Assembly (NCBI GenBank): GCA_015178975.1
Contig: WHVD01000007.1
Coordinates: forward strand, 496,001 to 560,000
Source of the DNA: Hysterangium stoloniferum
Taxonomy: Eukaryota; Basidiomycota; Agaricomycetes; Hysterangiales; Hysterangiaceae
Direction: 5' to 3'
Length of the DNA stretch: 64,000 bases
This document shows, in pieces, positions 1 to 64,000 of the stretch. The notes beneath the pieces were generated by a model that worked only from the letters and a program-made list of their open reading frames with translations, searched no databases and had not been told where the DNA came from. The position numbers and the translations under genes were made by a program. The first letter of the stretch is position 1; each line of letters opens with the position of its first letter.

Positions 1-503
1 GTATTAACTGCGGGAGGTTATATGCGTCTTGAACACCCTCTTAGACGACAGAAAGCTGCTCACGGATCATATCAACCAGCTGGATGTGGTTTGTTCGCTC
101 ATTGAGCCCCTCCTATGGTATATTGGCAAACTTGTACCTTCCAGCATCATCTCATATTCGCCGATGAAAATATCGTATCCACCCATGAATATATCGCATC
201 AGTTGATACAGATACAAACTAGTCATTGGTCGCTCCCCGCGTGTACCACAGTCCGCAGCCTGAATATCATCGCCATTCTCGCTCGTCTTCCACCTTGTGC
301 GGCAATGCGCGACTCAATCAACGATGAATCCCTCGTAGATGGCTGGGGGCAATTAAACGTCATGACTCATTTCCTCCTTTGCGTGATTGCCACCCCTTTC
401 ACCGGTGTATGCGTAAGATCCAATTAAAACTCCAAATTAGTATTGGAGGACCATGACTTGTGGGCCGATGCTCTTGTTCCATCCATTCGGCACCATTTAT
501 CAT
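1..503 (+). pseudogene. 3' part of family gene, copy 0 (exons 4-5)
   Basis: The window opens inside a copy of the repeated gene family. The text reads the exon 4 end (DHINQLDVVCSLIEPLL), a degenerate intron 4 region, then exon 5 (ACTTVRSLNIIAILAR, VIATPFTGVCV). It lacks exons 1-3, which would lie left of the window edge, and the frame does not stay open, so I call it a pseudogene. The first part of the family 3' flank follows to about 660. It then joins abruptly to the 5' flank of the next copy, which shows a rearrangement there. The function is unknown. The family assignment is firm because the same blocks recur in over ten places in this window. Confidence 0.75.
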
Positions 504-1779
504 GATTTCTCGTGGATAATATACTGACACACTCTCGTAACCAGGAGGAAGGAAAGAACTATTACTCTTTACTTAATACGCCTTTTGGAAATATTTATAA
601 TTTATGTAAAGTTACATATTTAACCTAATTCAAAGGGCCTATAGGCACTTTTTACCGCTTTCATTCTGAAAATATAACAATAATCTTTTCAGACCATCCT
701 ATGAAGTATAATGTTGGAAGGCAGGCCACATAATGGTTCTAGAATGGAGGTACCAACGGATGTGAGCTTAGAAGTTCACACGGACTCACAGCACTATTTC
801 GCTCCTACCACAAGAATCTTGAAAAAGTGAAAAGTGGAAGGTCAACTGGTGTCCCAAACTCAGATACGATACAAAATCACTATTGTGGTAGGGAATGAAG
901 ACCGCTACGACAACCGTTGTGAAGTCACCAGGGACAAAGGAGTGGCCTCTTTCGAAGGAGCCGACAAGTTGGCAGGAAAAGGGGACGTAAAAGCATATCG
1001 AGTATCCTGAATCGTTAGAAACCCGAAGAGCTCTCCTCCAAGAGGTCAAACTACGGAGACCTGCAATGTTTGATCTGTCTCGACATTGTCGAGTCGAAAA
1101 GACAAATAACTGAAAAATAACGTGAGTCTGGGGCGAATTAGTTCGCTGAAAAAGACAAGATAACTAGTGTGTAATAAATAGTGATTGGATGTTGAGTACA
1201 CACACAATTTGCTAATGAAAGGTTGAAGGATTCGCCGCAAAGAAGGATATCCAGGATCGACGCCAAATAACCTCATTAGACAATTATTCGAATGGTTGTC
1301 TCGTTGGAGTTGGGAAATAATTGAACACGAAGCGCTCCTGTCCGTGAGATATGGCTAGAGTGGAAAGTGCCTTGGGCTGTACCTCATCAGCACTGCGATG
1401 AATAGCCTCCACTATACTTACATGTTCCATCCATGAAGGCGTCACTTCTGATTGAAACTGGATTTCCATGAAATCTAACGCTCAAGAACTCGGAAGTTAA
1501 CACATTATGCGGTGACGACCTGTCAATTTATTCTCAGCCGCCATGTGTGTTTTCTGCCGTAGAAAATCAGATGAAATGTAAGGAACAATAGTGAAGTAAC
1601 TTGAGAGTATCTTGCCTGTCTTATACAAGAAGGATTAGTGGGCCTTCAAACTGGGTAAAAGGAATGGATGGAACGGTGGAGCACGGCCACAATACTATGC
1701 CTGGAAATTGACTATCGGGCTAACTACACCTTAAAGGCGGGGAATTCCCTTCCGGGATGATCATGACTACTACCCACCA
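504..1779 (+). other. Family 3' flank start joined to 5' flank of copy 1
   Basis: No gene is supported here. About 504-660 matches the start of the family 3' flank (GGATAACACTGACAC-like block, then CTTTTTACCGC). From about 660 to 1779 it matches the conserved 5' flank seen before other copies, including a block at 786-1049 that is readable on the minus strand and recurs near 24.3, 37.6, 46.0 and 56.6 kb. The sequence CCCACCAATG ends the flank at the start codon position. Confidence 0.6.
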
Positions 1780-3680
1780 ATGTAAACGTCCAAAGCGATC
1801 ACTATGAGAAGTCAAGATATCATATCCCTCCTATGAGAGTTTGAGCGGGTACAGCCCTTGGTCCCCCAGAGCCCAGAACAACAGGCGATCAATGACACGA
1901 GAATGAGGGAATTATTCCAGATAAAGCTCGCAGAACGATGTAGCTGCCTCGAACATGGGCACTGCGTATGTTACCGAGTACCCGATGACGACCAGCACAT
2001 GCCATTGTCTGAAGAAGACGTGGGAGTTTGTGTGGGGGAATAGGTACGTAAAGCGAAATGACCTTTTTATGTACACTGTTCACGAACCGGATGTTTTCAG
2101 TGTCAAGGAGGGAAATTGCGATGACCCACAGAACAATATTAATATACGAGGGAGATTCACCAACGCTACATACAAACTCAGTCCATCTCGAGGCATGACA
2201 TAGACTGGGGAGTCGTTTCAACGCCGGACAGCTCATCTTCCAGTGTGGGAGTTAGCCCCGGGTATTACTGTGGAGTCGGTTTGGAAAGGGTTGGGATGAA
2301 AGTCCTTTACAGCGCAAAGAAAGCATCGTTGATGACAAAGTTGATGATATATGAGCGAATGACGCGTGGACTATGGGAAGGGCCAGAACGTCGTTGACAA
2401 GTTTCTACTCAGGTATGTCACACAACCACGACTGGTAATAATAATTCAAGAGAGCGTTGATGTAATGAAGTAGGGATCAGACAGTGCCAATCAGTGAATA
2501 CACTCACAGTACTCACGTCTTCTAGACCCAGCGCCTCGAATTCGACAACAGGGGTCAATGGTATTAGGGGGGTTCTGGAATTCGAGTGATATCCATTGGA
2601 CGAACCAAGGTCAGCTCATGACATATTTGGCTTGGCCCTTCAATTGTTGTCCCGGCGCTCGATGGCCAGATAGAGATCGGACATCGACTGCAATTACGTC
2701 ATCGCTTTACAATACTTTAATCAAATCACCGCTACACACCAACTTGGACGAGGTTGCATCAACATTCATCATACAGATCGTACGATGTTTGTCATCCGAT
2801 CACCATCCTTTACTCGCTGCCGGCCTTAGCAATATCGTGGAAAATACCTGCCATGTTCGTCAGCTGTCCGGGAGTTCACCACGTTCAGATATTACTTTAA
2901 ATGCTGGTGACACCCGTGCGTCGCACGATCACATCTTATCACCATGTTGACGACAACCATAACAGACAAACTCTGCAGGGAGGACGCTTTGATATTTATC
3001 TTATACAGCCTTTCTTGCGGTGCATATACCAAGGTGCGTGGTTTCTAGATATTGCTGGTGATGTATTGAAGGGTATAGTGGACGACACGAACATCCATAC
3101 AGCATCATTGACAGTTGATATCGATGAGGACACCTCACATTCACTGTGGCGCTATATATGGGCCCAGAAAACCATCTTCGAGGACAGCACGCTTCGCACG
3201 GAGCATATCAACCAGCTTCATGTAGTTTCTTCGTTGAGAGGCACCCTTATACGGTATTTGGGCAATATTTGACTTACCATCATCGTCTCACACCCACTCA
3301 TGAAACTCTCTTACCAGTCTGACTCTGACACACACGTGGCCAAATTGGCCGCTCCTAGAGTCTAGAAAGGGACTAATCGAAGTCACCCTGAAGCTGATAG
3401 CTGGGTTTTCCGACACCGAATCCGCGTATACCACAGTCCGCAACCTCAATATTATCTCCATCCTCGCTCGTTTCCTTCTACATTGTGACACAATGCGCCG
3501 CTCAATTAACGATCAATTTTGTAGTAGCTGCCTACATTTTTTAAATGACATTGTACATTCCTTCCTTTGAGTTATCGCCACACATTTCACTGGCGTATCG
3601 GTAACGTCTAATTCAAACTCCACATCAGTGTTGAACAATCATGGATCGCCCGTTGAAGGCCTTGCTCCAAGACATATAAT
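1780..3680 (+). pseudogene. Family gene copy 1, decayed
   Basis: This is a full-length but broken copy of the unknown five-exon gene. The conserved start context is present but the second codon is a stop. Later frame breaks separate recognisable pieces: exon 1 CSCLEHGHCVCYR, exon 2 STNAT and YYCGVGLERVGMKVLY, exon 3 SLYNTLIKSPLHTNLDEVAS, exon 4 EHINQLHVVSSL, and exon 5 ESAYTTVRNLNIISIL. The donor GTACGT after exon 1 and the acceptor TTTTCAG are still visible, as in the intact copies. Its exon 5 and 3' flank form a subgroup with the copy near 53.4-54.9 kb (shared text TTTTGTAGTAGCTGCCTACA). No product is expected. Confidence 0.75.
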
Positions 3681-5801: not shown

Positions 5802-7635
5802 ATGTCAACTTCAAACGAAACGACTCTGAGCAGCGACGATATGGGACGCGCTCGAAACCTCCTACAAGAGGTTGAGTGGTTACAACCCCTGGTCTCCGCA
5901 GCTGCATTGAGCTCAGAAGAACGCGAGGAGATCATTGACGTGGGGATAAGGTAAAGATTGCAGATGAAGCTCCGAGAGCGATGGACCTGTATAGAACATG
6001 GGGACGGTGTATGTTATCGAGCTCCCGAAGACGACGAGCATATACCACTGTCTGAAGACGACGTGGAAGTTTGGGTTGAGCAATGGGTGCGTAAAATGAG
6101 ATAACCTTTCATGTACACTGTTAAAAAATTGGACGCTTTTAGTGGCTAGGAGAGACCACTTGTCATGATCCACCGACGATTATTAATATGCGAAGTAGAT
6201 CCACCAATGCCACATCCAGCCTCGGCTCACATGAGAGTCATGACGTGGACTGGGGAGTGGTCTCACTGTATGAGAGCTCATCGACATATTCAAGTACTAC
6301 TATTGAGCTGGGGCATTACTGTAGACTCGGTTTGGAAAGGGTTGGGAGGAATGTGCTTTACACTGCAAAGACAGCTGCACTGATGGCAAAGTTGATGATA
6401 TACAAGCGAATGGTGTATGGAGACGACAAGGCCTGTAATAAGTTCCTACGCAAGCATCTCACTCTGCCAATACTCGGAATAGTAATTCAAGAGACCATTG
6501 ACTTAATGAGGTGGGGATACTTCGAGGCCATCATTCAACAAACTCAAGATACTCACGTTTTGCTAGACCCACTTACCCGGTTCGAATTCGAGAACAGGCG
6601 TGGGTGGTCTCAGAGGGGTTCTGGAATTCAAGGGCTGTACAGCGGAGTAACGGAGGTCACAACGCCAACCTTATGGTATATTTGGGTTCGGCCTTCTACT
6701 GGTGTCCCGGCGCTCGATTGGGACATAGAGATCGAGTATCAACTGCAATTACGTCATCGCTTTACAATGCTGTAATGAAATCACCGCACGAACGTGGATG
6801 AGGTTGCGTCGACATTTATCCTAAAAATTATATCGTGGAAAACATCTACGAATTGCGTCAATTATCTGTAGAGGACCTCACTGCTATCAGAGGTGCCATT
6901 GAATTCTGGTTACAACAGTGCGTCGCGACATTATATCCTGTCCATGAAAACCACAACAGACAAACTTACCCATCCCGACCTGCCTTGTATGGCTTTCCCA
7001 TATGGCTTCTCGTGTGTTGCATGCACCAAGATCCCTGGTTTCAAGATATTGCTGGAGATGTATTTCAGGTTATCATGGACGACACAAAACTCCATATAGC
7101 GTCATTGACACTTCATATCGATGAGGGCGTGTCCTATTCACTTTTGATTCGTATCTGCTCCCTAGAAGCCTTCTTCCACGACAGCACGCTTCGCACTGAT
7201 CATATCAACCAGCTCAATGTGGTTTCTTCGCTCATCGAGCCCCTTTTAAGGATGTTGACAATGATTTACCTTCCAGCATGATCTCATATGCGCCCATTGA
7301 AATATTCTACCATCCTGATTCTGACGCATCCGAGTCCAAATTACTGGCTCTTCTGGGCAGGCGAGGAACTAATTGAGGTTACTCTGAACTTGATAGCGGC
7401 ATCGGCCGACATAGAATCCGCGTGTACCACAGTGCGCAGTCTCAATATAATCCCGATTCTGGCTGGTCTCCTTCCACATTGTGACGCAATACGTGGCTCA
7501 TTCGGCGATCCATTTACCCGTACGCACTTAAACATCACGGTACATTCCCTCCTTTGCGTCATCGCCATCCCTTTTACTGGTATTTCGGCGACCTGTAATT
7601 CGAACTCCACATCAGTGTTAGATGATGGTATTTAA
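5802..7635 (+). pseudogene. Family gene copy 2, near full length but interrupted
   Basis: The copy starts at the conserved ATG (MSTSNETTLSS) and keeps all five exon regions. Exon 1 contains an early in-frame stop, so the copy is probably dead. Exon 2 has STNATSSLGSHESHDVDWG and RVGRNVLYTAKTAALMAKL. Exon 3 has SLYNAVMKSPHER and ELRQLSVEDLTAIRG. Exons 4-5 have DPWFQDIAGDVFQVIMDD and LIEVTLNLIAASADIES. Introns 1, 2 and 3 retain GT and AG ends. Intron 3 here is 42 nt, a multiple of three without a stop, so the reading frame runs straight through it by chance. The function is unknown. Confidence 0.75.
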
Positions 7636-8198
7636 TCCGTGAGGCTCATGAAGGGAAGTGCCCATAATCTAGAATGCGTTCCTGGACTTGGTGTAGCGTT
7701 TGGAACTCCCGGAGCATCCCAGATAGCCGTTCTTCCTCCCAGCGTTTAAAAGCATTGTAGTGATAAGTCCTCAATTCGAACAGTCTTTTCTTTAATTTAA
7801 ACGGAACCACTTTAGTATCTCACTGAATTTGGGCTACTATTACCGCAAACAAGCAACATAAGGAGCGATCCTGTGGCCATTATCCAGGTGAATACGTTCC
7901 TCGGCGTCCGAGAACCTTTTCCCATCTCTCACCGACCATTGCACGATTCCTGGCCATTCAGAGGTCTCTTCATGGTGTGTCTAAGGTTCGTAGGCCTCAT
8001 CAGGTCGGCTTCAAGAATTAAACCACGATCGGGACCGAGTGCACAAGTGAGTCCGACGATGGCCTTCAGCTCAATAAATACCAATACGGCCGAGAACAAC
8101 ACCTTAAAGCAATCAAATTTCATGCATTTCATGTGAAGATAAGCCCGAATACACGAATACCTCCTGGACAAATATAATGGCCTTGTGACATTGCTGAT
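7636..8198 (+). other. Truncated 3' flank of copy 2
   Basis: Downstream of copy 2 the flank skips its first half and resumes at the TGAAGGGAAGTGC block, then runs to about 8198. There it joins head-on to an inverted exon 3 piece of copy 3. Only short non-conserved readings occur. I see no gene. Confidence 0.55.
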
Positions 8199-8295
8199 AT
8201 TTTGCACGATATTGTTAATGCCGGCAGCGATAAGGGATGGTGATCAGATGAAAAACATCGTGCGATATGTATGATAAATGTCGATGCAACCCCAT

Positions 8296-8686
8296 TGTAA
8301 TCCTGGCCGTCTTACCACAGGCACATATTACCGATCAGTCACTGCACCACAGGCACATTACGGATTAGGCCTCTGTTGTTCAAATGAATTCCTTTGTCCT
8401 TCGACGGGACCGGTTCCTTTTCGATCAAGCCTCTATTGTCTGAACGAATTCCCTTTGTCCTTCGATAGGACCGGTTCCCTTTGTTCTTCCGTTTTCGACA
8501 TATCTTTTTGTTCTCCGGTCTGTGATATCGACACCTCATTGTTCTGTGAAAGATATATTAATCCTCAGGAAACGTAGCTAGAAAGTAGAAGCTTCCACTT
8601 GTATTTTCCACCTTCCACTACTACTCGAACAGAGAAAGCTTAGTCCTGTTTGCATCGATTGAGTGAGGTCACACCGCGACCTTACA
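8296..8686. mobile_element. Solo LTR-like insertion with CCCAT target duplication
   Basis: The insert of 391 bp begins TGTAATCC and ends CCTTACA. It is flanked by CCCAT at 8291-8295 and 8687-8691. Uninterrupted family copies read CAACCTCATCCACG here, so the insert is clean. It carries two adjacent 60-bp repeats (8368-8427 and 8428-8487, each with GGACCGGTTCC) and a smaller repeat of ACCACAGGCACAT. No coding capacity is seen. It is most simply a solo LTR of an unidentified family, and the strand is unknown. Confidence 0.65.
8368..8487. repeat. Two 60-bp tandem repeats inside the solo LTR
   Basis: Two head-to-tail copies share CCTCT(A/G)TTGT, GAATTCC, TTTGTCCTTCGA and GGACCGGTTCC, with a handful of differences. 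They occur only inside the inserted element, not in the host gene family. Confidence 0.7.
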
Positions 8687-9885
8687 CCCATCCACGTTGG
8701 AGTGTAGCGGTGATTTGATTACAGCATTGTAAAACGATGACGTAATTGCAGTTGATGGCCGATGTCTATCTGACCAACGAGCGCCGGGACACCAAATGAA
8801 GGCAAAACCCAAATTTCCCATGAGCTTTGCAGTGTGCCCTTCGCTCCTCTACCATAAATAGCTTGAATCCCGGAGCCCCTCTAAGACAATTGGCCCCTGT
8901 TTTCGAATTCGAGGGGGATAGTGGGTCTAGAAAGACGTGAGGATTTTTAATGATTGACGCTGTTGTATCCCTACCTCATCAAATAAATGGTCTCTTGAAT
9001 TACGATTACCAGTCTTCGCACTGTGAGATACCTGAGTGGACACTTGTCAACGACGTTCTGGCCTTCCCAAGGTCCACGCGTCATTCGGTCGTATGTCATC
9101 AACTTGTCATCAGGGAAGCTTTCTTTGCGCTGCAAAGCACGTTATTCCCAACAGAGTCCACAGTATTACCCGGGGCCAATTTGTACACTTGGAGACGAAC
9201 TATCTGGCGATGAGACGACTTCCCAGTCTATGTCTATGTTATACCGACCATATGGAGGTGGCGTTTGTGGTTCTCCCTCGTTTCTTAATATGATTCCGTG
9301 GGTCATTGTAATCCTGGTGCCCCCAGTCTTACGCACGGACCCTTTAGTTTTACGTGATTACATAATCACCGTGTTGTACGGTATAAGTAGCCGGGAAGTT
9401 TTCAGGACCTTAGATCTTACCGTACGCTGCACTTGCCTGTATCTTGTTCTGCTCTGGACAATACACCGTGGTCCTGTCAACTTGTGTGACCGCCAGTGAT
9501 CCCAATTGACGACGGGATTACAGTCATCGCCAGTTCTCTCTCCTTGACTCTGAAAACATCCGGTCTGTACACTGGGTACAGAAAAATATTTTCTATTACG
9601 TAGCCATTCCTCGACCCAACCTTCCACGTCTTCTTCAGACGATGGTATGTGCTGGTCGTCATCGGGTGTTCGGTAACATAAACAGTCTACGTGTTGGAGA
9701 CAGCTACATGGTTCTCCGAGCTTCATCGGGAATCTTTCCCTCATTCCCGTGTCATTGATCTCCTGGCGTTCCAAACTCAATATAGCCGGTGAAACCAAGG
9801 GTTGCAGCCACTCAACCTCTTGTAGGTGGCGTTCAACCCGTCTGATATCGTGGCTGCTCAGAGTGGTCGCATTTGAAGTTGACAT

Positions 9886-10829: not shown

Positions 10830-12799
10830 TTAGAATATATCGCGTGGAAGGGGTAGAGCAAATGCATCGACAGGCCAAGCATCTTCCTCTAACGCAGACA
10901 TCCAGTTAGAGGTAGGGGCTACTGACACGCCGGTAAAGGGTGTGGCGATGACGGAAAGGAGGGAATGACACATGAGGTGTAATCTCTCAAAGGGATTATG
11001 GGGGGATTGATCGTTGATGGAGCCACACATTGGGTCACAATGTGGGAGAAGACGTTCGAGAATGGTAATCATATCGAGGTTGCGCACTGTGGTACACGCG
11101 GATTCGAAGTTGGAAGATCCAGCTATCAGCTTCAGAGTGAGGTGAAGTAGTTCTTCGCCTGAAGAGAGGAGCCAGTAATTTGGACGCTTGTGTGTCAGAA
11201 TCAGACTGGTAGGATATTTTCATGGGTGGATATGAGATGATGCTGGAAGGTAAAACATTGTCAACATACCGTACGACGGGTTCAATGAGCGATGAAATCA
11301 CATTCAACTTGTTGATGTGATCCGCGCGCAGCGTGCTGTCGTTGAAGAAGGCTTTCAGAGCCCGGATACCACACTGCAATGAATACGTTGTGTCATCATC
11401 CATAATAAGAGTCGTGGACGCTATGTGGTGGTTTGTGTCGTCAATTATAACCTTGAATAAATCCCCAGCAAAATCACGAAACCAGGCATCTTGGTGGATG
11501 CAATACAGGAGGAGGCGTACAGGAGATTTATCCAAGGTTCGTCGGTGTGAGGAATTTTGTCTGTTATGGTTTTGGTGGGCAGGATAAAATGATATGATGT
11601 CGCGACGCACGGTTGTACCCAGAATTCAATGCAACCTCTGATCGCAGTGACCTCCTCCACAGTCAATTGACGCACGTGGCAAATATTTTCCACGATAACC
11701 CCAAGGTCGGCGCAGAGGATTAAGGGAGATGGATTGCATGGGGATGATAGATACCCAGCGATTTGTAGAATGAATGTCGACGCAACCGTATCCACGTTCG
11801 TGTATAGCGGTGATTTGATGACAGCATTGTAAAGCGAAGACGTCATTGGAGTTAAGCCGAGTCGCCGATTTACATTTGCCCATCGAGTGCAGGAACACCC
11901 GAGGAAGGCCCAAGCCAAAGTTGTCAGAAGCCTGGCAGTGTCACCTCCGTTCCTCCGGTGTATAAGCCTTGAATACCAGACGGCTTCTAAGACCCCCCAT
12001 GCCCTTCTTTGAATTCGATCCGGATAAGTGGGTCTAGAAAGCCGTGAGTATTTTGACTGTATTCAATTATTGGCGCTGAAGTATCCCCACCTCATTAAGT
12101 CAATGGTTTCTTGAATTACTATTCCGAGTCTTCGCATAGTCCGGTGTTTGCGTAGGAACTTGTTACAGTCCTCGTCGTATCCATACATCATTCGCTTGTA
12201 TATCATCAACTTTGCCATCAGTGCAGCTGTCTTTGCAGTGTAAAGCACTTTCCTCCCAACCCTTTCCAAACCGACCCCACAGTAATACCCCGGCTCAATT
12301 TTAACACTTGACGATGTCGATGAGTTATCATCCAGTGAGACCACTCCCCAGTCCACGTTGTGACTGTAATATGGACTGAGGTTGGATGTGGCGTTGGTGG
12401 ATCTACCTCGCACTTTAATAAAATTCGGCGGATCATGACAATTTGTCTCTCCTAGGAACTGAAAGCGTCGGGTTTGTAAACGGTATACATTAAAGGTTAT
12501 CCCATTTTGCGCACCCATTCCTCAGCCCAAAATTCCACATCTTCTACCGACAATGGTATATGCTGGTCGTCTTCGGGAACTCGATAACACACACCGTGCC
12601 CGTGGGCGATACAGCTCCATCGGTCTCGAAGCTTTCCCCTGAATCTTTCCCTTATCGCCGCGTCAACCACCCCCTCCCGTTCTTCTGAGCCCATTGCAGC
12701 TGGGGAGACCAAGGGTTGTAGCCACTCAACCTCTTGTAGGGGGCTTTCAGCCTGTACGATATCGTGGCTACTCAGAGCAGTTTGGTTTGGAGTCGACAT
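10830..12799 (-). CDS. Intact five-exon gene of unknown family, copy 4 (580 aa)
   Basis: I do not recognise this protein. Five exons on the minus strand give an open frame: 12799-12515, 12458-12091, 12033-11611, 11560-11270 and 11205-10830 (TAA). The introns are 56, 57, 50 and 64 nt with phases 0, 2, 2, 2. Their donors are GTGCGC, GTGGGG, GTGCGT and GTATGT; acceptors are TTCAG, CTAG, ACAG and CCAG; introns 1, 2 and 4 hold a YTNAY branch site. The ATG at 12799 is chosen because MST(S/P)N is conserved in all copies. Residues 63-80 hold CxxHxHxxC plus a later His, and Cys102-His103 lies just after the first splice, so a zinc site is possible (inference). Exons 4-5 look helix-rich. No signal peptide or clear membrane span is seen. 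An open frame in two diverged copies argues for past or present selection on the protein. Confidence 0.75.
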
Positions 12800-14370: not shown

Positions 14371-16263
14371 TTATTGTATATCGTGTGGAATGAATGGAAC
14401 AAAAGATGGGCAGGCTAGTCATGGTTCTCCAACACTGATCTGGAGTTTGAATTAGATTTTGCCCACACACCTGTTGAAGGTGTGGCGATGAGAGAAAGGA
14501 GGGAATGAGCCGCGACGGTTATTCTTTCAAGGTAGGTACCGACGTATTGATAGTTGATTGAGCCACGCATTGCGTCACAATGTGAAAGAAACGGGAATAT
14601 ATTGAGGTTCCGCATTGTGGTACACGCTGATTCGATGTCTGAAGATGCGGCAATCAGCTTCAGAGTAACCTCGATTAATCTTTCGCCTGACCAGAGGAGG
14701 CACACATTTGCACTCTTCTACGTCAGAATCAGACTGGTTAGGATGTTTTAATGGGCAGATATGAGATGATGGCGAAAGGTAAAACATTCTCGACATACCA
14801 TAGGAGGGGCTCAATGAGTGAAGAAACCACATTCAGCTGGTTGATATGATTCCTGAGAAGGGTGCTGTCGTCGAAGAAGGTTGTCAGGGCCCGGATATCA
14901 TGACACAGTGAATACGTTGTGTCCGCATCGATATGAAGAGTCAAGGACGCTATATGGAGGTTTGTGTCTTCCACTACAACCATCAATACATCTCCAGCCA
15001 TATCTCGAAACCATTTATCCTGGTGGATGCAACACACGAGAAGCTGTATAGATGATTCATACGAGGAACGTCGGTGTGGGTAATTTTGTCTGTGGTGGTT
15101 TTGGTGGGCTGAATGAATGATGTGAGGTCGCGACTCACGGTTGTACCCAGAATTCAATATGACCTCTGATCTCAGTGAGCTCCGCCACAGGCAGGTGACG
15201 CACGTGGCAAATGTTTTTCACAATGCGCACAAGGTCGCCGAGGAGGATGGGACCAGGGAAGTTCACAAAGGGACGATAAATATCTGGCAATTTTTTGAAT
15301 AAAGGTCGACGCAACCTCATCCAGGTTGGTGTGTAGCGGAGATTTGATGAGAGCAATGTAAATCGTTGACGTAATTGCGATTGATCGCCCATCTTCATCT
15401 GACCATCGAGCGGTGGGACACCCCAAGCCATATATGCCATAAGCTGGACACTGTGACATTCCTCCGCTGTATAACACCTGAATACCACATACCCGCTAAG
15501 ACCACTGAGGCCTGTTGTCGAATTCGAGGCGGAGAAGGGGGTCTACAAAGGCATGAGTATTGTGAGTGTATTCCCTGATTGACGCTGTTTTATCCATCAG
15601 TCTTGCCAATGTGAAATGCCTGAATAGAAACTTATCAATGACGTTCTGGCATTTCCGTGGTGCACGCGTCATTCGCTCGTATATCATCAACTTTATCATC
15701 AGCCAAGCTGTCTTTGCGCTGCAAAGTACTCTCATCCCAACCTTTTCCAAACCGACTCCACAGTAATACCCGGGGCTAATTTCAACACTTGAATATGAGC
15801 TATTCCGAGATGAAACGCCTACCCCAGTCTATGCCACCTCTGGGATGTGGACTGAGTTTGAATAAGGCGTTGGTGGATCTCCCTCGTATCTTACTATTAT
15901 GCGGTGGGTCATGGCAATTTCTCTCTCCTTGGGACTGAAAACATCCCGCCTGTGAAGAGTGTCCATAAAAGGATATTTCGTTGTGCGCACCCATTCCTCC
16001 ACACAAACATCCACGTCTTCTTCAGACAGTGGTATGTGCTGCTCGTCATGGTGTTCTCGGTAACATAATCAGTGCCCATGTTCGAGACAGCTACATCGCT
16101 CTCGAAGCTTCACCCCGGATCTTTCCCTCATTCCCGTGTCATCGATCACCTGTCGTTCCATCCTCAATACAGCCGTGGAAGCCAAGGGTTGTAGCCAGTC
16201 AACCTCTTGGAGGAGGGATAGGATATCCTCCCTCCTCGGAGTTATCTCGTTGGAAGTTGACAT
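14371..16263 (-). pseudogene. Family gene copy 5, full length but interrupted
   Basis: The copy starts at the conserved ATG at 16263 (MSTSNEITPRREDILSLLQ). Exon 1 carries RCSCLEHGH and then an in-frame stop. Exons 2-5 are recognisable: NCHDPPHNSKIRGRSTNA, SPLHTNLDEVASTFIQKIA, KWFRDMAGDVLMVVVEDT, and LIEVTLKLIAASSDIESA. The intron 4 donor GTATGTCGAG and acceptor ACCAG are present. At least two further frame breaks lie in exons 2-3. The function is unknown and the copy is presumed dead. Confidence 0.75.
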
Positions 16264-20412: not shown

Positions 20413-21271
20413 CTCCCACCTAATGAGACAGCTCTATGCTAGTCCCAATAGTTTTCTCAAATATTCCATCTTTGGCTTAGCCAATGGTTTTGTTAATAAA
20501 TCTGCAGGCATCTCTGAAGTAGGTAGATGAACAACTTTAATCTTCCCACTATCAACCTCCTGCCTTAACCAATATGTCCTCAAATCAAGATGCTTCATTC
20601 GACCATGGTGTTTAGGATCCCTGGCAACTGCCATAGCAGATTGGTTGTCAAGGTACAAAGTGGATGCAGTCTTTTGAGGATATCCCAATTCCTCAAATGA
20701 GTTCCACAACCATAATACCTCTGCACCTGCTGATACTGCTGCAATGTACTCTGCTTCAGTAGTAGAGAGAGTAACAATAGTTTTTAGTTTATGCTGCCAG
20801 TTAATGGCTCCAGTACCCATTTTAACCACATATGCACGAGTAGATTTTCCAGTGGATTTATCACCTCCATGATCAGTATCTGAATAGGATACAAATAGTT
20901 CCTTGTCATTACTAGAGCCATAAGTTAAACCCAAGTCAAGAGTGCCTTTGAGATACTGGAAGAGGTGTCTTACTGCTAGCCAATGAGCCTTTCCTGGATT
21001 TTGATTGAATCTAGCCAATACACCAACAGTGTAACCAATGTCTGGATGAGTGGCAACAGCCAAATACATATATAAGAGACCCAATAGCATGGATATATGG
21101 AATGTCCTTCATATATGCAATCTCGTCAGGGGACACTGGAGCCTGGTCTTTACTCAGTTTCAAGTTAGGCACTATAGGTGTACTAATTGGATTGCAATCA
21201 GCAAGACCATAATGCTGTAACATGTCCAAAATATATTGCTACTGTGATAGAGTAATGATTCACTTCTTCCC
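20413..21271 (-). mobile_element. Truncated Ty1/copia interior (RT end and RNase H)
   Basis: The minus-strand text reads the end of reverse transcriptase (PYIHAIGSLIY) and RNase H (LSTTEAEYIAAV, NQSAMAVARDPKHHGRMKHL, MPADLLTKPL). This identifies a Ty1/copia fossil. Only this 3' part and its LTR remain; the 5' LTR, gag, protease and integrase are absent. At 21271 it meets exon 5 of the gene family directly, so the loss came with a rearrangement. The element is broken, with roughly four fifths of it missing. Confidence 0.8.
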
Positions 21272-30800: not shown

Positions 30801-30805
30801 GTGTC

Positions 30806-48310: not shown

Positions 48311-48795
48311 CAGATAGATATGAACAGTCAAGGACGTTATATGGAGGTTTGTGTCCCACAATAATCTTCAATGCATCTCCAGCAATAGAGAACATTTGCA
48401 ACTAATATCTCGAAACTAGGTATCTTGGTGGATGCAACACACGATAATGTGTATAGGAGATCCATAAAATGAAAGTCGGGGTGGGTAATGTTGCCTGTTG
48501 TAGTATGGTGGGGAAGGATAAAATGATGAGAGGTCACGACGTATGGTTGTATCTAGATTTCAATACAGCCTCTGATCACAGTGAGCTCCACTACAGATAG
48601 TTGACGCACGTGGCAGATGTTTTCTACAATACCCGCAAGGTCGCGGAGGAGGAAGGGAGGTTGAGTGCTTGAGGATGATAAATATCCCGCAATTTGTAGA
48701 ATAAATGTCGACGCAACCTCATCCACGTTGGTGTGTAGCGGTGATTTCATGACAGTATTGTAAAGCGATGACGTAATTACAGTTGATGAGTGCAT
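48311..48795 (-). pseudogene. Second partial copy beside copy 13 (exon 3 to exon 4 start)
   Basis: A tandem partial copy in the same orientation: exon 3 (SSLYNTVMKSPLHTNVDEVA, GIVENICHVRQLSVVELTV), intron 3 with GTACGT-like and ACAG-like remains, and the exon 4 start. It ends in exon 3 at the AGTTGATG block, where unmatched sequence begins. It looks like a local tandem duplication or unequal exchange with copy 13. Confidence 0.65.
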
Positions 48796-50647: not shown

Positions 50648-53050
50648 ATGTCAACTTCCACCGAGATAACTCCGAACAGGCAACAACATATCATACCACT
50701 CCTACAAGGGGTTGAGTGGCTACAACCCTTGGTTTCACCAGCTATATTGAAGGTAGAACGACAGGATATCAATGAAACGAGAATGAGGGAAAGATTCCAG
50801 ATGAAACTTCGAGAACGATGGAGCTGTCTGGAACATGGTCAAGGTTTATGTTACCGAGCACCTAAAGACCGCGGGCACATACTACTGTCTAAAGAAGATG
50901 TGGAATTTTGGGTGGAAGAATGGGCGTGAAAAATGAAATATGCTTCTCACATACACACTTGACAAACCTCATGCCTTCAGTGCCAAGGAGAGAGAAATTG
51001 TCATGACCCCCCGACAATTATTAAGATGCGAGGGGGGTCCACCAACACGACATCATATCTTGGTGCATATCAGAGCCGTAATATCGACTGGGGAGGGGGC
51101 TCACTTCCTGATAGCTCATCTTCAAGTATTAAAATTGGCCCAGGATATTTCTTAGGAGTCGGTTTGGAAAGGATTGGAATAAAAGTGCTGTTCAACGCAA
51201 AGAAGGTTTCGCTGATGACAAAGTTGACACTATACAAGCGAATGGCGCGTGGATACGGAGACGACAAGGGCTTTAACAAGCTTCTACAAAGGTATATTAC
51301 GCTGAAAAGACTGGGAACAGTCATTCAAGAGAGCATTGATTTTATGAGGTAGGGCCACAACATGGCAATCATTAAACACCGAACATACTTAGTCAATGCT
51401 TGTAGACCTATATACCCACTCCAAATTGGACAACAGGCATCAGTGGTATTAGTGGGTTCTATAGTTCAAGTGTTATATAGCGGAGGAAGGGAGGACACAC
51501 TGAAAAACTGATAGTATCTTTGGGTTCGGCCTTCCTCTGGCGTCCCGGCGCTCGATCGCCGGATGTAGATCGGCGATCAGCTTCAATTACGTCTTCACTT
51601 TACAATGCTGTCATAAAATCACTGCTACACACGAACGTTAATGAGGTTGCATCGACATTTATTCTTCAAATCGCCCAATATTTGTCATCCCCCTGCAATC
51701 CACCTCCCTTCCTCCTTAGCACCTTGCGGTTATTGTGAACATGACTTGTCATGTGTGTCAAGGTTTTTTTTTTTTTTTTTTTGATATATTTGTATCCCAC
51801 TTCAAGCAACAATGGCTAACTGCGGCTAGGGGGTGAAAAGGCCCCCAGAGAAACTATGCTATGGTGGTATGAAGTTCCGAGTGAGCTACGTGCATAGAAG
51901 GGATTTTAGTAAGCAAAGGGAGGGCATGTAGATATATACATGGTATAGAGCTGAGGCCTTGAGGCCTTGGGCCAAAGCCCCAAGAAAAGCCCAAGATCCT
52001 GCTAGCAGGCATCGACAAGGCCTGCAGGCACACCGAAGTCTTGCATTGCTAGTGCATAGGTGAATGCTGGAGTTGGGGGTAGGTAGGAAGGGTAGACCAC
52101 TGCCGGGCAGCAGTCATGGTTGGTAGGTGCCAGTGAAGTTCCGCAGACGACACTGGTGTGCAGCTGAAGGCTGCCGACTTTGACAGAGCGGTAAATTCAG
52201 AAGCCCCCAAACCTGTTCACTGTCATCCGCCTCTCCACCCCTCACCACGAGCACTGGGGGCCCCAACACCAGGGCAGGTGGTGGTCACGGAACAAGAGAG
52301 CCTTGTCACATGTGTCAACTGTCTGTAGTGGAGCTCACTGCGATCAGAGGCTTCATTGAATTCTGGGTAAAACTGTGCATCCCAACATCACATCCTTTTG
52401 TCCTGCTCACCAAAACCACAACAGACAAAATTACTCATACCGACTTTCCTTTTATGAATCTCCTATACAGCTTCTCGTGTGCTGAATCTATGGTTTCGAA
52501 ATATTGCTGGTGATGTATTGAAAGTTGTAGTGGACGACATAAACCTAGATATAGCGTTCTTGACATTTCACATCGATGAGAACACATCACATTCACTGTG
52601 GTGCAATATATTTTCCCTAGAAACATTTTTCAATGACAGCACACTCCTCCTAGATCATATCAACCAGCTGAATGTGGTTTTTTCGCTCAATGAGCCCCTC
52701 CTAAGGTCTGTTGATATTGTTTTACCTTCCAGCATCATCTCATATCCTCCCCATCACAATATCCTACCAGTCTGATTCTGACACACATGTGTCCAAATTC
52801 GTGGTTCATGTGGTTAGGCAAATGACTAATCGAGGTCACTCTGAAGCTGATAGCTGCATCTTATGACATCAATTCCACATGTACCACAGTGTGCAACCTC
52901 AATATCATCCCCATTCTCGCCCGTCTTCTTCCACTTTGTGATGCAATGCGTGGCTCAATCACCGATTAAAAGCTCGGTGCTTCCCTTGAATGAGTAACTG
53001 TTGCCGCTCATTCCTTCTTTTGTGTCATCACCACACCTTTCACCGGTCTG
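50648..53050 (+). pseudogene. Family gene copy 14, split by a LINE tail
   Basis: The copy starts at the conserved ATG (MSTSTEITPNRQQHIIPLLQ). Exon 1 is open (SCLEHGQGLCYRAPKDRGH), but the intron 1 donor has changed from GTGCGT to a non-GT sequence, so splicing is probably lost. Exon 2 (NTTSYLGAYQS, KVLFNAKKVSLMTKLTLY) and exon 3 (SLYNAVIKSLLHTNVNEVAS) follow. A LINE tail at 51762-52301 splits exon 3. Exons 3-5 resume at 52302 (VVELTAIRGFIEFWV, DVLKVVVDDINLDIAF, DHINQLNVVFSLNEPLL). It is a pseudogene with several breaks. Confidence 0.7.
51762..52301 (-). mobile_element. 5'-truncated LINE tail (or SINE) with 17-bp target duplication
   Basis: The insert of about 540 bp has a run of 19 T at its left end (a poly(A) tail on the minus strand). 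Matching 17-bp flanks, CTTGTCATGTGTGTCAA (51745-51761) and CTTGTCACATGTGTCAA (52302-52318), differ at two places and are single in other copies. This is target-primed insertion of a non-LTR element. There is no open frame of note and no clear Pol III box, so a truncated LINE 3' end is favoured over a SINE. The body is GC-rich. Confidence 0.8.
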
Positions 53051-53700
53051 TGTGTATGTAGTTTTCTTCGTTGATTGGCCCCCTTCTATGGTATGTGTAC
53101 AACATTTTCCTTTCCATCATCTTCTCACATCCACCTATGAAACTATCCTACCAGTCTGACTCTGACACATGTTGGAAAGCATCATGGACAACAGTGTCTA
53201 TACTTAGAATGACAAAGGGGTGGTCTCCGGAACTTGTGGGCACACGGGGATATAGGGCCATATCACCTTGTATAAATACTAAGAGTCTGTCACTATGTTA
53301 CCTAGTCTGTTATACTTATCCATAGCTCCCTAATGATATGGGTCTTGAATCTTAACAACACACACATGTCCAAATTGGCCACTCCTAGAGTCTAGCAAGG
53401 GACTATTGAGTTCATCCTGAAGCTGATATCTGGGTCTTCTGACACCAAATCTGTGTGTACCACAGTCCCCAGCTTCAATATTATGACCATTGTCACTCAT
53501 TTCCTTCATTGTGACACAATGCGCCCCTCAATTAACAATTAATTTTGTAGTAGCTGCCTACATTTTTTAAATGACATCATAACTTCCTTCCTTTGCATGA
53601 ATGCCACACCTTTCACTGGTGTGTCAGTCACATCTAATTCAAACACCACATCAGTATTGAACAATCAAGGCTGGCCTGTCAAAGGCCTTGCTCCATGATC
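53051..53700 (+). pseudogene. Second exon 4-5 tail after copy 14, holding a solo LTR
   Basis: After copy 14 exon 5, a second tail begins at TTTTCTTCGTTGATTGGCCC (exon 4 end), with intron 4 (GGTATGTGTACAAC) and exon 5 (TCCTGAAGCTGATATCTGG). A solo LTR at 53170-53357 sits at the intron 4/exon 5 border. It groups with copy 1 (shared TTTTGTAGTAGCTGCC). Many CpG sites of copy 1 read TpG or CpA here. It is decayed, with no product. Confidence 0.65.
53170..53357. mobile_element. Solo LTR, 188 bp, with ACACA target duplication
   Basis: It begins TGTTGGAAAG and ends CTTAACA, with ACACA at 53165-53169 and 53358-53362. TATAAATA is present near 53.27 kb. Sister copies are uninterrupted here (CTGACACACACGTGG near 3.33 kb). 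The family is not assigned; the length is consistent with a copia-like LTR. Confidence 0.75.
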
Positions 53701-57524: not shown

Positions 57525-59449
57525 ATGTCAACTTCCAACGAGATAGCTCCAAGTGGGCATGATGTCCTATCCCTCCTCCAAGAGGTTGACTGGCTACAAC
57601 CCTTGGTTTCCCCGGCTGTATTGAGGATGGAGCGACAGGAGATTGATGACACGGGAAAGAGGGAAATATCCCGGATGAAGCTTCGAAAGCGATGTAGCGG
57701 TCTCGAACATGGACACTGTTTATGTTACCAAGCACATGATGACGACCAGCACATAGAACTGTCGGAAGAAGACGTGGAAGTTAGTGTGGAGGAATGGGTG
57801 CGCAAACGAAACGTCCTTTTTATGGAGACTGTTCACATACCGGATGTTTTCAGTGGCAAGGAGAGAGAAATTTCCATGAGCCACCGAATAATATTCAAAT
57901 TCGAGGGAGCTTCACCAATGCCACATCCAAACTCAACCCATATCGTAGGCGTGCCATAGACTGGGGAGTTGGCTCATCTGCGGATAGCTCATCATCGAGT
58001 CTGTACATTAGTCCCGGGTATTACTGTGGAGTCGGTTTGGAAACGGTTGGGAGGACTGTGCTTCACAACGCAACGACAGCTGCACTGATGGCAAAGTTGA
58101 TGGTATACAAGCGAATGGTGCAGGGACACGACAATACGCAAGCATCTCGATCTGAGAAGAATAGGAATAGTAATTCAAGAGACCATCGACTTAATGAGGT
58201 GGGGATACTTCAGCGCCAATCATTGAATACACTCAAAATACTCACCATTATAGACCCACTTACCCGCGTCGAATTCAAGAACAGGCAGGGGTGTTCTTAC
58301 AGCATTTCTGGTATTCAAATGTTATACAGCGGAGGAGCGGAGGACACACTGCCAATCTTCTGGCATCGTTGGGTTCGGCATTCTACTGGTGTCCCGGCGC
58401 TCGATGGAACGATAGAGATCAGCCATCAACTGGAACTACGTCATCACTTTACAATGCTGTCATAAAATAACCGTTACACACCAACGTGGATGAGGTTGCG
58501 TCGACATTCATTCTACAAATCGCACGATATTTGTCATGTCATCAATATCCCTTCCCCTTCGACCAACTTGTGGATATCATGCAAAGCATCTGCCATGTGC
58601 GTCAATTGTCTGTAGAGGAGCTCACTGCAATCAGAGGTTGTATTGAATTCTGGTTACAACCGCGCGTCGCAACATCACACCATTTCATTCTGCCCACCAA
58701 AACCACAACAGGCACAATTACTCACACCGATTTTCCTTGTATGGCACTCCTATACCGCTTCTAGTGTTCTGCATGCACCAAGATCCCTGGTTTCTAAATA
58801 TTGCTGGAGATGTATTAAAGGTTATAGTGGCTGACATAACCCACCATATAGCGTCCTTGACTCTTATTATGGATATGGACACAACGTATTCATTGTGGTA
58901 TGGTATCTCGGATCTGCAAACCTTCTTCGGCAACAGCACGCTTCACACGCATCACATCAAACAACTGAATGTGGTCCATTCACTCATTGAGCCCCTCCTA
59001 CGGTATGTTGAGAGTGGTTTACCTTCCAGCATCATCTAATATCCGCTCTTGAAAATATCATACCAGTCTGATTCTGACACACCGACACACCCAAGTCCAA
59101 CTGTGTACCTCCTCTCATCAGGGACAAACTAATTGAGGTCACTCTGAACCTGATCGCTGGATCTTCCGACATCGAATCCGCGTGTAGCACAGTGCGCAAC
59201 CTGGATATAATTGCCATTCTCCCTCGTCTTATCCCACATTGTGACACAAAGCGTGGCTCACTCAACGATAAATACCTCGTTTCCCGGCTTGAAGCAATAA
59301 CCCTTGCGGCTCAGTCTTTCCTTTGTGTCATCGCCACACCTTTCACCGGTGTATGCGTAACATCTAATTCAAACTCCAGATCAGTGTTGGAGGACCATGG
59401 ATGGCCTTCCAATTCTCTTGCACTATCCATTCCGTCCGATATTTCATAA
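57525..59449 (+). pseudogene. Family gene copy 15, duplicate of copy 11, broken
   Basis: It starts at the conserved ATG (MSTSNEIAPSGHDVLSLLQ) and keeps all five exon regions and all four introns with GT and AG ends. Compared with intact copy 11 it has a 17-bp deletion late in exon 2, a stop in exon 3 and frame shifts in exon 5, so it cannot make the full protein. By eye, exon 1 and the exon 4-5 region are about 95% identical to copy 11, exon 2 about 87%, and exon 3 only about 80%. This uneven pattern suggests mosaic origin. The exon 1 motif is RCSGLEHGHCLCYQAHDDDQH. Confidence 0.75.
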
Positions 59450-61834
59450 TTTCTGTTGGATAACACTGACACATTATCCGAATCAAGAGGAGGGATAGTA
59501 ATATTACTCCCGCATTTTGGAAATATTTCAAATTTATGTAAAGCGACATAGTTTGAGCCATTTAAAGAGCGCATATAGTCACCCCTTTCCGCCTTTGTGT
59601 GCTTGGCAGCTTCTCGTTGATGCTATATACATGTTGCATATATTCGTCGGCCGTGGTAGTGGCTGTAATCAAATACGATATATCAACGAGAATCACCTCA
59701 AATAGAATACCAGTCTAAGGTGTCAAAGAAAGCAATGTGTTAGTTAGTTGGGATAGCATAAAGTAAATCATTGGAGAACAGCAAAAAAATACCCGTTACA
59801 ATCACTTGATGGCCGATCTACATCGAGCGCCGGGACACCAAATGAAGGCCCAACCTTCAGCTTGGCAGTGTGACTTCGTTCCTGCGAATGCCACAAGCTC
59901 ATCCAAACTACGGACGCCTTTTTTCGGAATCCAGGGGGATAAGTAACATATGCCCTTCGTGTTCAATTCTTTCGGAATTCCAATTCCGATAATTCTGTAC
60001 TTAGGTTAATTGGCGTCCATCGTCAACATGCCTGTTTATGGGGAATCCCACAGCTCTTCATTAACAAATTGAGCGCGTAATCTATATTCAGTGGTAACTA
60101 ATTACATGCTACTATTATGACACCATCCTTCTAAGTACAGCAGTTTGAATCAACTAACACTGGGAAAGCCTGTATGGAAAGCAAAAGGCTGCGAGCGGCA
60201 AAGTGTGGAAATCAAAGTCTGCGGCACCGATATATGATTCCACAAAGCTAGGATCCAAGTGAGAGTGATGGGGACACTTCACGCTATGAACCTTATGCCT
60301 CCCATAACGATAACTTGGACGATAGTCACCCGACTCCGACCTTAGAGACATAATGACAAGAACTCTTGATCGCCAGGACTAGTGAAATGGTCGGTTATAG
60401 ATGACACAAGGTGCGCAGACGCCGAGGGATATATTCTCCCGGATAATAGCGACAAGATGTCTCACTCTAGTCCTTGTTTCTGGTACTCGGAGCACGAATC
60501 CAGGCAGGTGCTCTGAAACATTCCGTTTAAATAAAATAAAACAGTTGGTCGAATTAAAAACTCATGAGTAAAACGGGTTTAAGTGCTTTGAGGAAGTCCG
60601 GCTATTTGAGATGCTCCAAGGTATTCCAGCTCGGGCAGACTCTAGATTGCCGGGACTTCTCCGTGTGAATTGTCCGGATCAAATACCAATTTACAGATGC
60701 TTTATCTTCTTTAAGACATCCGGTGTCCTTGGTGCGTAATCCTCTTCATTTCCCTCCCTCAAGAAATTTCGGACCCCCAATCTGTTGAAACAGTTGAATA
60801 ACACTTTGCAGAACACCCCTGTGAGTGTGATTGGAAAGTAAACACTAAGGAGACTTTCCCACACCCACAGTGGACTATACTACTAGGTGCTTATCTAAGC
60901 ACCTATACAGGAGGTACTGACCTAAGGTAACTCACTCAATACTGCACCTACAGCACTGGGAAAAATACTACAAATACTAGAAAAATATGGAGATCATAAT
61001 AGACTATGTTAGAGCTGTAGTATCATACTCTAACACAATCAACTCCACTTGTCATCAAAGATATTCAAGCCATGGTCCCAGAATATCTGTCAAAAGCAGG
61101 TGTGCCATCCGCCAGGCTTTGTTATATCCAATTTAGAACCGCTTTCTATCAGGTGGTGCCATTTAGAATCCTCGCACTTTTCCTGTATCGCCAAGCATCA
61201 GTTATACATTATACCGGGCTCAAAAGCCCCTCCGGGTGCTCTTTTGACCCTCAGTGCAATATTCACGACTGTCGGCTTTGAAACTTGGATCCCATGGGAA
61301 CGTTTTGATTGGAGAGAAATACTTAATGGAATCCTCTCAACGCCATCCCTGTACGTTCTAATGGCCCCTCTTTTTGCGCCTCGTGATAGCCGATCACGAG
61401 ATTAAAGATAGACTTTAAATATTAGATGAGTCTGACCGAGATAACCGTTGCCATGGATTAGTGAGTGATTGTTGTGGGTCTTTTTTGCTTTTCTTCATGA
61501 CCTTCTTCATGCGATCCCAACTAAGTGACACGAAAATCACGGTGATGGGGCTGTCTGCTGAGAATTATCAGTGCTATTCTATGTGGACTCGTGTCGTTCA
61601 TAAATCCGAGGCCATTCTAGCCACTCCAAAGCCTCCAAATATTATTCTACATGCGTATGGCATGAACGAGGAGCTACCAAACACCGGGAGATGGTGAAAA
61701 GTGACTGTATGCGCTATACATTGCCCCAAACTATGTAGCGTCATACAACTTGTAAGTACGGTTACAAACGATTTAATCGTAATAGCACTATCTCTGCTTG
61801 TTTTGATAAGTTACGTCGGCGTTATCCAGAGAAA
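59450..61834 (-). other. 3' flank of copy 15, then inverted unit pieces and 3' flank of copy 16
   Basis: The order matches 40.47-41.93 kb: forward proximal 3' flank (to about 59790), inverted exon 3 fragment (59790-59940), inverted 5' flank piece (59940-60110), inverted 3' flank (60110-60777 and 61041-61834), the last interrupted by a solo LTR. No gene is called; open stretches such as LFLYRQASVIHYTGLKS are flank readings seen, frame-broken, in other copies. Confidence 0.6.
60783..61035. mobile_element. 253-bp solo LTR with CAATC target duplication
   Basis: It begins TGTTGAAACAG and ends CTCTAACA, with CAATC at 60778-60782 and 61036-61040. The empty site is present at 41.81 kb (GACAACCAATCAACTCC). 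Nearly its whole length matches the outer 250 bp of the 1616-bp LTR at 18797. The interior lacks the remaining 1.36 kb. Confidence 0.85.
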
Positions 61835-63672
61835 TGATTGTATGTCGTGCCTAAATCGTGAGGAGGTCCTTTGACAGCCTAACCATAATTCTTCAACACT
61901 GACGTGGAGTTTTGATGACACGTTACCGACACACCAGTGAGAAGTGTGGCGATTACGGAAGGGAAGGGATGAAGAATGTGATTTCCAAAATGTAGGCAGC
62001 TACTGCACAATTTATCGTCAACTGAGCGGCGCATTATGTTACAATGTGGAAGGAAATGAGCGAGAAATGGAGATAATATTGAGTATGTGGACTGTGCGCC
62101 CTTTCCAGACTGGTAGGATAGTTTCATGGGTGGATGTGAGACGATGCTGGAAGGTAAAATATTGTACACATACTGTAGAAGGGGTCAACGCAACGAAGAC
62201 ACTATGCAGCTGGTCTATATGATCCGTGCGAAGCGTGCTGTCCTCGAAGAAGGTTTTAGGGCCCAGATATTACGCCACAGTGAATGTGACTTCCCCTCAT
62301 CGATATGAAGAGTGAATGTGACCTGCCCTCATCGATATTAAGTGTCAATGACGCTATATGGATATTTTTGCCGACCATATAGCCTTTAATAAATCACCAG
62401 GTATATTTCGAAGCCACGCCTCTTGGTACATGTAACGCACGAAACGCTGTATAAGGTACACATCAAAGCGTCCTCCCTGGCAATTTTGTCTGTTATTATT
62501 TTCGTGAAGATGGTGCTAATATGTGATCGTGCGACGCACGGTTGTAACCGGAATTCAAAGCAATCTCCGATTGCGGTGAGCTCTCTTGTACAGACAGCTG
62601 ACGCACATGGCAGATATTTTCCACGATATTGCTAAGGCCGGCAACGAGTAGGGTTTGGTGATCGGATAAGAAACATCGTGCAATCTGTGTGATAAATTTT
62701 GATGCAACCTCATCCAAGTTGGCGCGTAGCTGTGCTTTGATCAAAGCGATGACATATTTGCAGTCGATGTCCGATCACTATCTGCCCATTGAGCGCGGGG
62801 ACACCAAATGAAAGCCAAAGCCAAATATGTCATAAGCTGACCTTGGGTCGTCCACTGCATATCACTCTAATTCCAGAATCCCCCTAATACCACCAAGGCC
62901 TGGTGTCGAAATCGAGGCGGGCAAGTGGGTCTAGAAGACATGAGTATTGTGAGTGTATTCACTCATTGACACTGTGTTATCCCTGCCTCATTAGATCAAC
63001 GCTCTCTTGAATGATTATTCCCAGTCGTGGCTGCGTGACAGACCTTAGTAGAAACTTGTCAACGCCGTTCTGGCCTTCCCGTAGTCCATACGTCATTCGT
63101 TCGTATATCATCAACTTTGTCATTAGCGAAGCTCTCTTTGCGCGGTAAAGCACTTTCATCGCACCCCTTTCCAAACCGACTCCACAGGAATACCTAGGGC
63201 TAATTTCCACACTGGACGATGAGCTATCCGGCCAGGAGACGATTCCCCAGGCCATGTCATACGTGCGAGATGGACTGAGTATGCATGTGGCGTTGGCGGT
63301 TCTCCCCCGTCTCTTGATATTATTCGGTGGTTCGTGGTAATTTCTCTTTCCTTGGCACTGAAAACATCCTGTCTGTGAACAGTCTACATCAAAAGGACAT
63401 TTCGTTTTACGCACCCATTCCTCCGCACACACTTCGACGTCTTGTTTGGAAAGTGGTATGTGCTGGTCGTCATTGGCTACTCGGTAACATAAACAGTGCC
63501 GATGTTCGAGACACCTAGATCACTCCCGAATCTTCATCCTGGATCTTTCCCTCATTCCCCTCTCATTTATTTATCTGCTGCCGTTCCATGCTCAATACGG
63601 CTGGGGAAACCGAGGGTTGTAGCCACTCAACCTCTTGTAGAAGGGATAGGATATCCTGTCTCCTCGAAGCTA
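61835..63672 (-). pseudogene. Family gene copy 16, start codon lost
   Basis: The reverse copy begins inside exon 1: the stretch before TTCGAGGAGACAGGATATCC, including the ATG, is deleted. Exon 2 is open (NYHEPPNNIKRRGRTANAT, GVGLERGAMKVLYRAKRASL) and intron 1 retains GTGCGT and TTTCAG. Exon 3 (NLDEVASKFITQIARCF, VENICHVRQLSVQE), exon 4 and a shortened exon 5 follow with frame breaks. No product is expected. Confidence 0.7.
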
Positions 63673-64000
63673 TATTGTGGCCGTGCTCCTACCCGTTCCA
63701 TCCATTCCTTTTAACCAACTTGATGGCCCACTAATCCTTCGTCTATAATACAGGCAGGACACTCTCACGTTCCATTACCATTTTTACACTTATTCCTTAG
63801 ACTTCATGAGATAATCTACCGCAGAAAAGACACATGGCAGCTGAGAATAAATTTAGAGGCGGTCACCGCATAATGGGCTAAATTCCGAGTTCTTGAGCGG
63901 TAGATTTCATGGGAATCGAGTTTTCCGTCAGAAGTGACATCTCCATGTATAGAATATGTAAGTGTAGTGGAAGCTATCTATGGCACTCGTTTAACCTTTT
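63673..64000 (-). other. 5' flank of copy 16
   Basis: The inner 5' flank in reverse continues to the right edge of the window (CACATGGCAGCTGAGAATAAA block). No gene is seen. Confidence 0.6.

Follow-up and report, generated by a model that had tools for sequence, protein, structure and literature searches.

Most of one 64-kb stretch of the Hysterangium stoloniferum genome is taken up by copies of a single gene and their flanks, which raises the questions of whether these copies belong to a host gene family or travel as the cargo of a mobile element, and of what their product might do. The stretch (hereafter the window) spans positions 496001-560000 of contig C522 (WHVD01000007.1), in an assembly of 111.1 Mb and 554 contigs.

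Gene Copies in the Window

In a self-alignment, 76.5% of the window was covered one or more times and 63.9% four or more times, in line with a preliminary description in which gene copies and their flanks were said to fill most of the 64 kb. An exon-by-exon map gave 79 exon matches (22.1 kb exonic), which were grouped by eye into 10 five-exon copies (five on each strand), 3 partial copies (one on the + strand, two on the − strand) and about 8 fragments. The initial count of at least 14 copies holds provided that fragments are included, and both orientations and all stages of decay, from open and non-open to partial and fragmentary, are represented as had been described. The two copies regarded as intact, at 10830-12799 (−) and 38539-40467 (+), keep an open frame across their five exons. 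The features are as follows:

19-503, + strand: fragment, exons 4-5 (exon map)
1780-3643, + strand: five-exon copy, not open (exon map and copy alignment)
5802-7622, + strand: five-exon copy, the exon 3 match being shortened to 350 bp (exon map)
8188-9885, − strand: partial copy, exons 1-3 (exon map)
10830-12799, − strand: five-exon copy, spliced frame open, 580 aa (GT..AG at 4/4 introns)
14371-16263, − strand: five-exon copy, not open, one donor lost (exon map and copy alignment)
21277-23045, − strand: five-exon copy, exon 4 split in two pieces (exon map)
25117-25480, + strand: fragment, exon 4, then an LTR retrotransposon, with an exon 5 piece beyond it at 30803-30861 (exon map and self-alignment)
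31472-32543, + strand: exon 3 and exon 5 fragments, scrambled (exon map)
35019-36526, + strand: partial copy, exons 1-2 truncated, exons 3-5 present (exon map)
38539-40467, + strand: five-exon copy, spliced frame open, 567 aa (GT..AG at 4/4 introns)
40815-40966, − strand: exon-3 fragment, inverted, within a 3′ flank (exon map and locus alignments)
42004-42099, − strand: exon-3 fragment, inverted (exon map)
43294-45196, − strand: five-exon copy, not open (exon map and copy alignment)
47223-48303, − strand: partial copy, exons 3-5 (exon map)
48303-48788, − strand: fragment, exons 3-4 (exon map)
50648-53056, + strand: five-exon copy, about 540 bp separating two exon 3 parts, with an extra exon-5 fragment at 53358-53674 (exon map)
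57525-59449, + strand: five-exon copy, not open, one donor GC (exon map and copy alignment)
59803-59944, − strand: exon-3 fragment, inverted, within the 3′ flank of the copy at 57.5 kb (exon map)
61866-63684, − strand: five-exon copy, exons 4 and 5 matched in part (exon map)

The LTR retrotransposon, at 25481-30800, is of Copia type, with LTRs of 321 bp that are 97.5% alike. It lies within a decayed gene copy, has GTGTC on both sides (by eye), and is, judged from this arrangement, a later insertion into that copy. Its LTR divergence, set against a mean intron divergence of 0.18 between gene copies, indicates that the element is much younger than the copies. Thus, the one LTR pair analysed belongs to this insertion and is not part of the repeated unit, and it gave no sign that the family itself is an LTR retrotransposon. 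A second copia-like ORF, seen by eye at 20434-21090 (−) with a sub-threshold Pfam match, adjoins a gene copy.

Gene Model and Open Copies

The gene model was obtained from a three-frame reading of reference copy L020 and an alignment of 32 near-full copies. There are five exons (273, 362, 408, 291 and 379 nt in L020) and four introns (56, 55, 50 and 64 nt), and the product of open copies is 566-580 aa long. Donors were GT at 124 of 128 sites and acceptors AG at 128 of 128 across the aligned copies, which bears out the description of the gene as intron-bearing. Nine of the 32 copies were stop-free and in frame, and three more were in frame with one stop; the copies counted as not open, these three included, numbered 23, yet splice sites were kept across the set. 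This set consists of the best matches to one query, the window copies and samples, and is not random.

The nine open copies compare with 2.0 expected if terminal branches were neutral (simulated P of 3e-5 for nine or more), in a sample weighted towards near relatives of the query and made up of copies that recombine. The test is conservative because frameshifts were ignored.

Copy Number, Arrays, and Subfamilies

It was found that an exon-3 motif, with up to two mismatches allowed, had 716 matches in the 111-Mb genome (361 + and 355 −), an exon-2 motif 560 (265 + and 295 −), and a further motif 546. Chance was excluded because the reversed-motif controls gave only 0-1 matches (1 for exon 3 and 0 for exon 2). 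On known copies, mostly of the subfamily designated A below, the exon-3 motif matched 75 of 84 and the exon-2 motif 57 of 69; from the counts and this calibration, we arrive at about 700 to 800 copies, and we therefore estimate the family at several hundred. The local expansion first noted was thus real, but its scale had been underestimated. Such a size would rank among the larger fungal gene families. The family matches listed are spread over at least 49 contigs.

C522 was sampled at 15 places of 3 kb each. Of the seven samples lying within 80 kb to 1.2 Mb, six had a family cover of 0.79-1.0 and one of 0.12. The other eight, located at 1-3 kb or from 1.3 Mb onwards, had 0-0.21, the value of 0.21 being due to a match to window 55.9-56.5 kb, outside the gene. 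Matches on this contig, among the 150 scored of 1597 candidates, begin at 15 kb and end at 1,282 kb. One subfamily (A) stretches over about 1.27 Mb of C522, and another (B) is found mainly on other contigs. With a query from C149, which contains translated intron 3 so that its stop counts were left unused, 140 of the 150 matches scored among 1597 candidates were on C522, C8, C106 and C149; with a query from C524, 4 of the 150 scored among 1461 were on those four contigs, 29 were on C388 and 18 on C257. The mean exon-3 identity was 0.79 within A on C522 and 0.81 within B, and 0.67-0.68 between A and B.

Subfamily B has the same exon/intron layout as A. Exons 2-4 were stop-free in 7 of 8 B copies from eight contigs, all chosen from matches with exon 3 listed as stop-free, and the matched exon-3 stretch was stop-free in 141 of the 150 B-query matches scored (of 1461 candidates; stops judged by eye). 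Open copies are thus present elsewhere in the genome, as 9 of the 32 near-full copies were open and the B copies on other contigs were largely stop-free. In the B copies L069-L074, L054 and L055, the intron-1 donor reads GTGAGT, against GTGCGC in the A copies shown, and the C-termini seem to end differently.

Similarity within C522 did not fall with distance (Spearman −0.058, a value reached or undercut in 56 of 500 permutations, for 67 exon-3 stretches with 91 or more aligned query residues each). Therefore, the copies appear shuffled over the 1.27-Mb block in both orientations, and purely tandem growth was rejected.

Some other features of the assembly were recorded. The SSU, 5.8S and LSU rRNA matches were eukaryotic, and the rRNA reads as that of an agaricomycete; by eye, the rDNA unit at L035 (C15) appears to begin inside the SSU gene and to break off inside the LSU gene, and the SSU at L036 (C516) is fuller. 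An open frame of 829 codons at L051 (C522:1611087-1614086), outside the sampled array, looks by eye like a Ty3/gypsy gag-pol. All 15 STE3-type pheromone receptor matches clustered at C553:189684-199876, and a link between the family and mating type was rejected because these matches are confined to that one locus.

Flanks and Breakpoints

Related copies align over 4.9 kb, flanks included, at 89%, so the earlier remark that flanks travel with the gene stands in this respect; the copies do not, however, form a unit whose two ends are shared throughout. This was evaluated by pairwise alignment of 19 copies (171 pairs; 2 of 21 copies were dropped for want of an anchor). Upstream of the exon-2 anchor, the alignments stopped at 1.17-1.20 kb in 64 of the 171 pairs and at 0.59-0.61 kb in 32, and in 17 they ran through the recurrent 5′ point and ended only where the retrieved sequence did. 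The 3′ extents were scattered over 1.27-2.96 kb in several piles. The constant unit ends that had been proposed as a check therefore appeared as recurrent breakpoints with no agreed pair among the 171. In ten loci, the recurrent 5′ junction abuts a piece of exon 3/4 from a different copy. Several alignments terminate near window 40816-40818, the start of an inverted exon-3 fragment. Inverted repeats were searched for in four regions and found in two; they were rejected as terminal repeats around the gene because they match the 5′ flank or exon fragments of neighbouring copies in opposite orientation.

We give a small probability to the view that the gene is carried by, or is part of, a mobile element not yet described, whose insertion close to its own relatives would scatter close kin over one region. 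Such an element would account for similarity that is flat with distance over 1.27 Mb of shuffled copies, and for flanks that travel and breakpoints that recur, both at the most frequent 5′ point and near 40816-40818. Yet the copies do not agree on a pair of ends, many close pairs extend past the recurrent points, the inverted repeats examined are pieces of neighbour copies or 5′ flank and not unit ends, the subfamilies sit on different sets of contigs, and Pfam searches of three spliced products found no mobility domain. The suggestion of a large mobile unit found no support in the ends, the widely spread 3′ extents or the domain search. A stretch of 4.9 kb or more is common to contigs C157 and C524 at 95.9%; the two may be alleles or may stem from a recent duplication. 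The alignments seem better explained by array segments that were duplicated and kept their breakpoints than by a discrete mobile unit, although this falls short of proof.

Recombination and Selection

Sites close together in the alignment were incompatible less often (0.294) than in shuffled order (0.346), and none of 1000 permutations was as low. The lower incompatibility of nearby sites indicates recombination between copies. That the copies form a gene family that is large, recombining and in part open is well supported. By eye, copies L060 and L063, about 132 kb apart on C522, are the same in exon 2 but diverge strongly over the opening half of exon 3, a pattern that conversion or local selection would produce.

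Over the whole gene, dN/dS was 0.79 for 12 intact or near-intact A copies, with none of 66 pairs above 1, and for exons 2-4 of 8 B copies, it was 0.74, with 6 of 28 pairs above 1. These values appear close to relaxed constraint. In the 32-copy alignment, introns differ no more than exons between copies. Exon 3 is patchy: a scan from which 18 of 67 stretches were dropped for stops or shortness showed conserved stretches (pN/pS about 0.3-0.5) alternating with hypervariable stretches (above 1).

Codon models were fitted to exon 3 of 41 A copies, that is, all those off the eight B contigs, dispersed copies included. For 73 hypervariable codons, omega was 1.754 (lnL −3928.9 versus −3946.9 at omega 1), and for 65 framework codons, it was 0.582 (lnL −2009.5 versus −2020.2), values obtained with exon 3 alone, a partition drawn from the same alignment and a single tree for recombining copies, and which gene conversion and the gappy alignment may inflate. 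All exon-3 codons of A together gave 1.18, and a split-half check of the partition gave 2.46 versus 0.36. In the 8 B copies, the hypervariable codons gave 1.02 (neutral) and the framework 0.61; therefore, an omega above 1 was found for A alone, the value of 1.41 for the hypervariable part of all 49 sequences coming from a simpler model.

These numbers bear on the possibility that a once-useful gene was multiplied through unequal exchange within repeat-rich DNA and is now drifting in passive arrays, the positive selection being an artefact of conversion or alignment. The gene-wide dN/dS of about 0.75-0.8, the introns that evolve no faster than exons and the 23 of 32 sampled A-type copies that are not open would all be expected of drift, whereas the excess of open copies (9 against 2.0), the largely stop-free exon 3 of subfamily B and the constrained framework codons (0.58 in A, 0.61 in B) would not. 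We consider this account unlikely, if the least so of the alternatives to a host family with a function.

The Predicted Product

Nine raw ORFs and three spliced products were searched against Pfam, one product each against NCBIfam, PADLOC and PDB, and two profiles against PDB. The copia ORFs gave copia matches; otherwise, the raw-ORF results were at chance level, and no significant match to the family product was obtained in any of the four databases. For viral contigs, there were 25 pattern matches, none of them confirmed. The original statement that the protein could not be placed in a known family is thus upheld by profile searches, and the clear hit to a transposon or host family that would have spoken against it did not occur. 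An RTC4-like domain (E 0.024 in one of the nine raw ORFs) was rejected, being absent from the three spliced products and from 25 of 25 members of alignment A3.

AlphaFold models of two contiguous stretches (exons 2-3, containing translated intron 2, and exons 3-5, containing translated introns 3 and 4) were all-helical or nearly so, with mean pLDDT of 42 and 53 and ten-residue blocks of exon 3 reaching 88. A Foldseek search with the exons 3-5 model returned nothing at E 0.001 or better, and its weak matches included designed helical repeats and importins. In a hydrophobicity scan, 12 of 12 intact or near-intact products lacked an N-terminal hydrophobic stretch; one C-terminal segment was borderline (KD19 up to 2.0), so a membrane protein is still conceivable. 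We infer that the product is probably intracellular and alpha-helical, and possibly of the helical-repeat kind. A surface or secreted variant repertoire, comparable to parasite antigen families, would share the large size, the inter-copy recombination and the hypervariable segments, but the lack of an N-terminal hydrophobic stretch in all 12 products makes it very improbable.

Comparison with Known Systems

The wtf genes are multi-exon genes with decayed members, and their proteins are membrane proteins. In Schizosaccharomyces pombe, they undergo non-allelic gene conversion and rapid amino-acid change (PMC6526906), and 25 members are named for the reference genome (PMC5478263); wtf genes are also the subject of PMC9562144. 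By description, the present family resembles them in its multiple exons, decayed members, inter-copy conversion and rapid amino-acid change. The same features (for conversion and coding change, see PMC6526906) would suit a selfish killer or drive family, whose members harm meiotic products lacking them or act as antidotes, and spread and diverge through conflict as wtf genes do. We nevertheless regard this as distinctly unlikely: the copy number, in the hundreds and not the tens, is far above the 25 reference-genome members (PMC5478263), and the family products show no clear multi-pass membrane pattern in the hydrophobicity scan. As to a sequence relation with wtf, the Pfam search of the three spliced products returned no significant family.

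Fungal NLR-like genes, which are linked to non-self recognition, form large families of intracellular proteins whose repeat parts are under positive selection (PMC4986451), and in family size, probable intracellular location and apparently positively selected parts, the present family is similar to them. It differs from them in that the three spliced products gave no Pfam match to NACHT or NB-ARC at E values up to 10 and none to WD, ANK or TPR repeats, with helices predicted at low confidence. The KDZ transposon and TET/JBP families have expanded to very high copy number in mushroom genomes. The likeness here is in copy number, and the difference is that no transposase or dioxygenase match was found in the three spliced products.

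A Possible Recognition Repertoire

We favour, at somewhat less than even confidence, a host family of several hundred coding genes with intracellular, probably helical products that would have been diversified, perhaps for recognition, by duplication, recombination and selection. The weakest step is the recognition role, which is suggested by hypervariable segments under selection in one subfamily, the lack of an obvious secretion signal and the size of the repertoire. The hypervariable parts of the product would bind varying partners, and the arrays of open and broken copies would supply the material that duplication and gene conversion could assemble into new variants, used, as in recognition repertoires, for non-self recognition or defence inside the hypha. 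A more far-reaching version, which we think rather doubtful, is that this is an undescribed intracellular recognition repertoire of mushroom-type fungi, with hundreds of alpha-helical proteins in which conserved and hypervariable segments alternate, renewed by recombination in megabase arrays and acting in non-self recognition or defence.

Hypervariable, clustered and recombining families are already known as a kind; for this family, we recognised no prior description in the open-access literature, to which the search was confined. If the density elsewhere resembles that of the window (11 motif matches per 64 kb), the family would take up, very roughly, 4 Mb of the genome. Its several hundred open and broken members, for which the products searched gave no known domain, escape domain-based annotation. 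The mixture of constrained and hypervariable segments makes a role in recognition directly testable.
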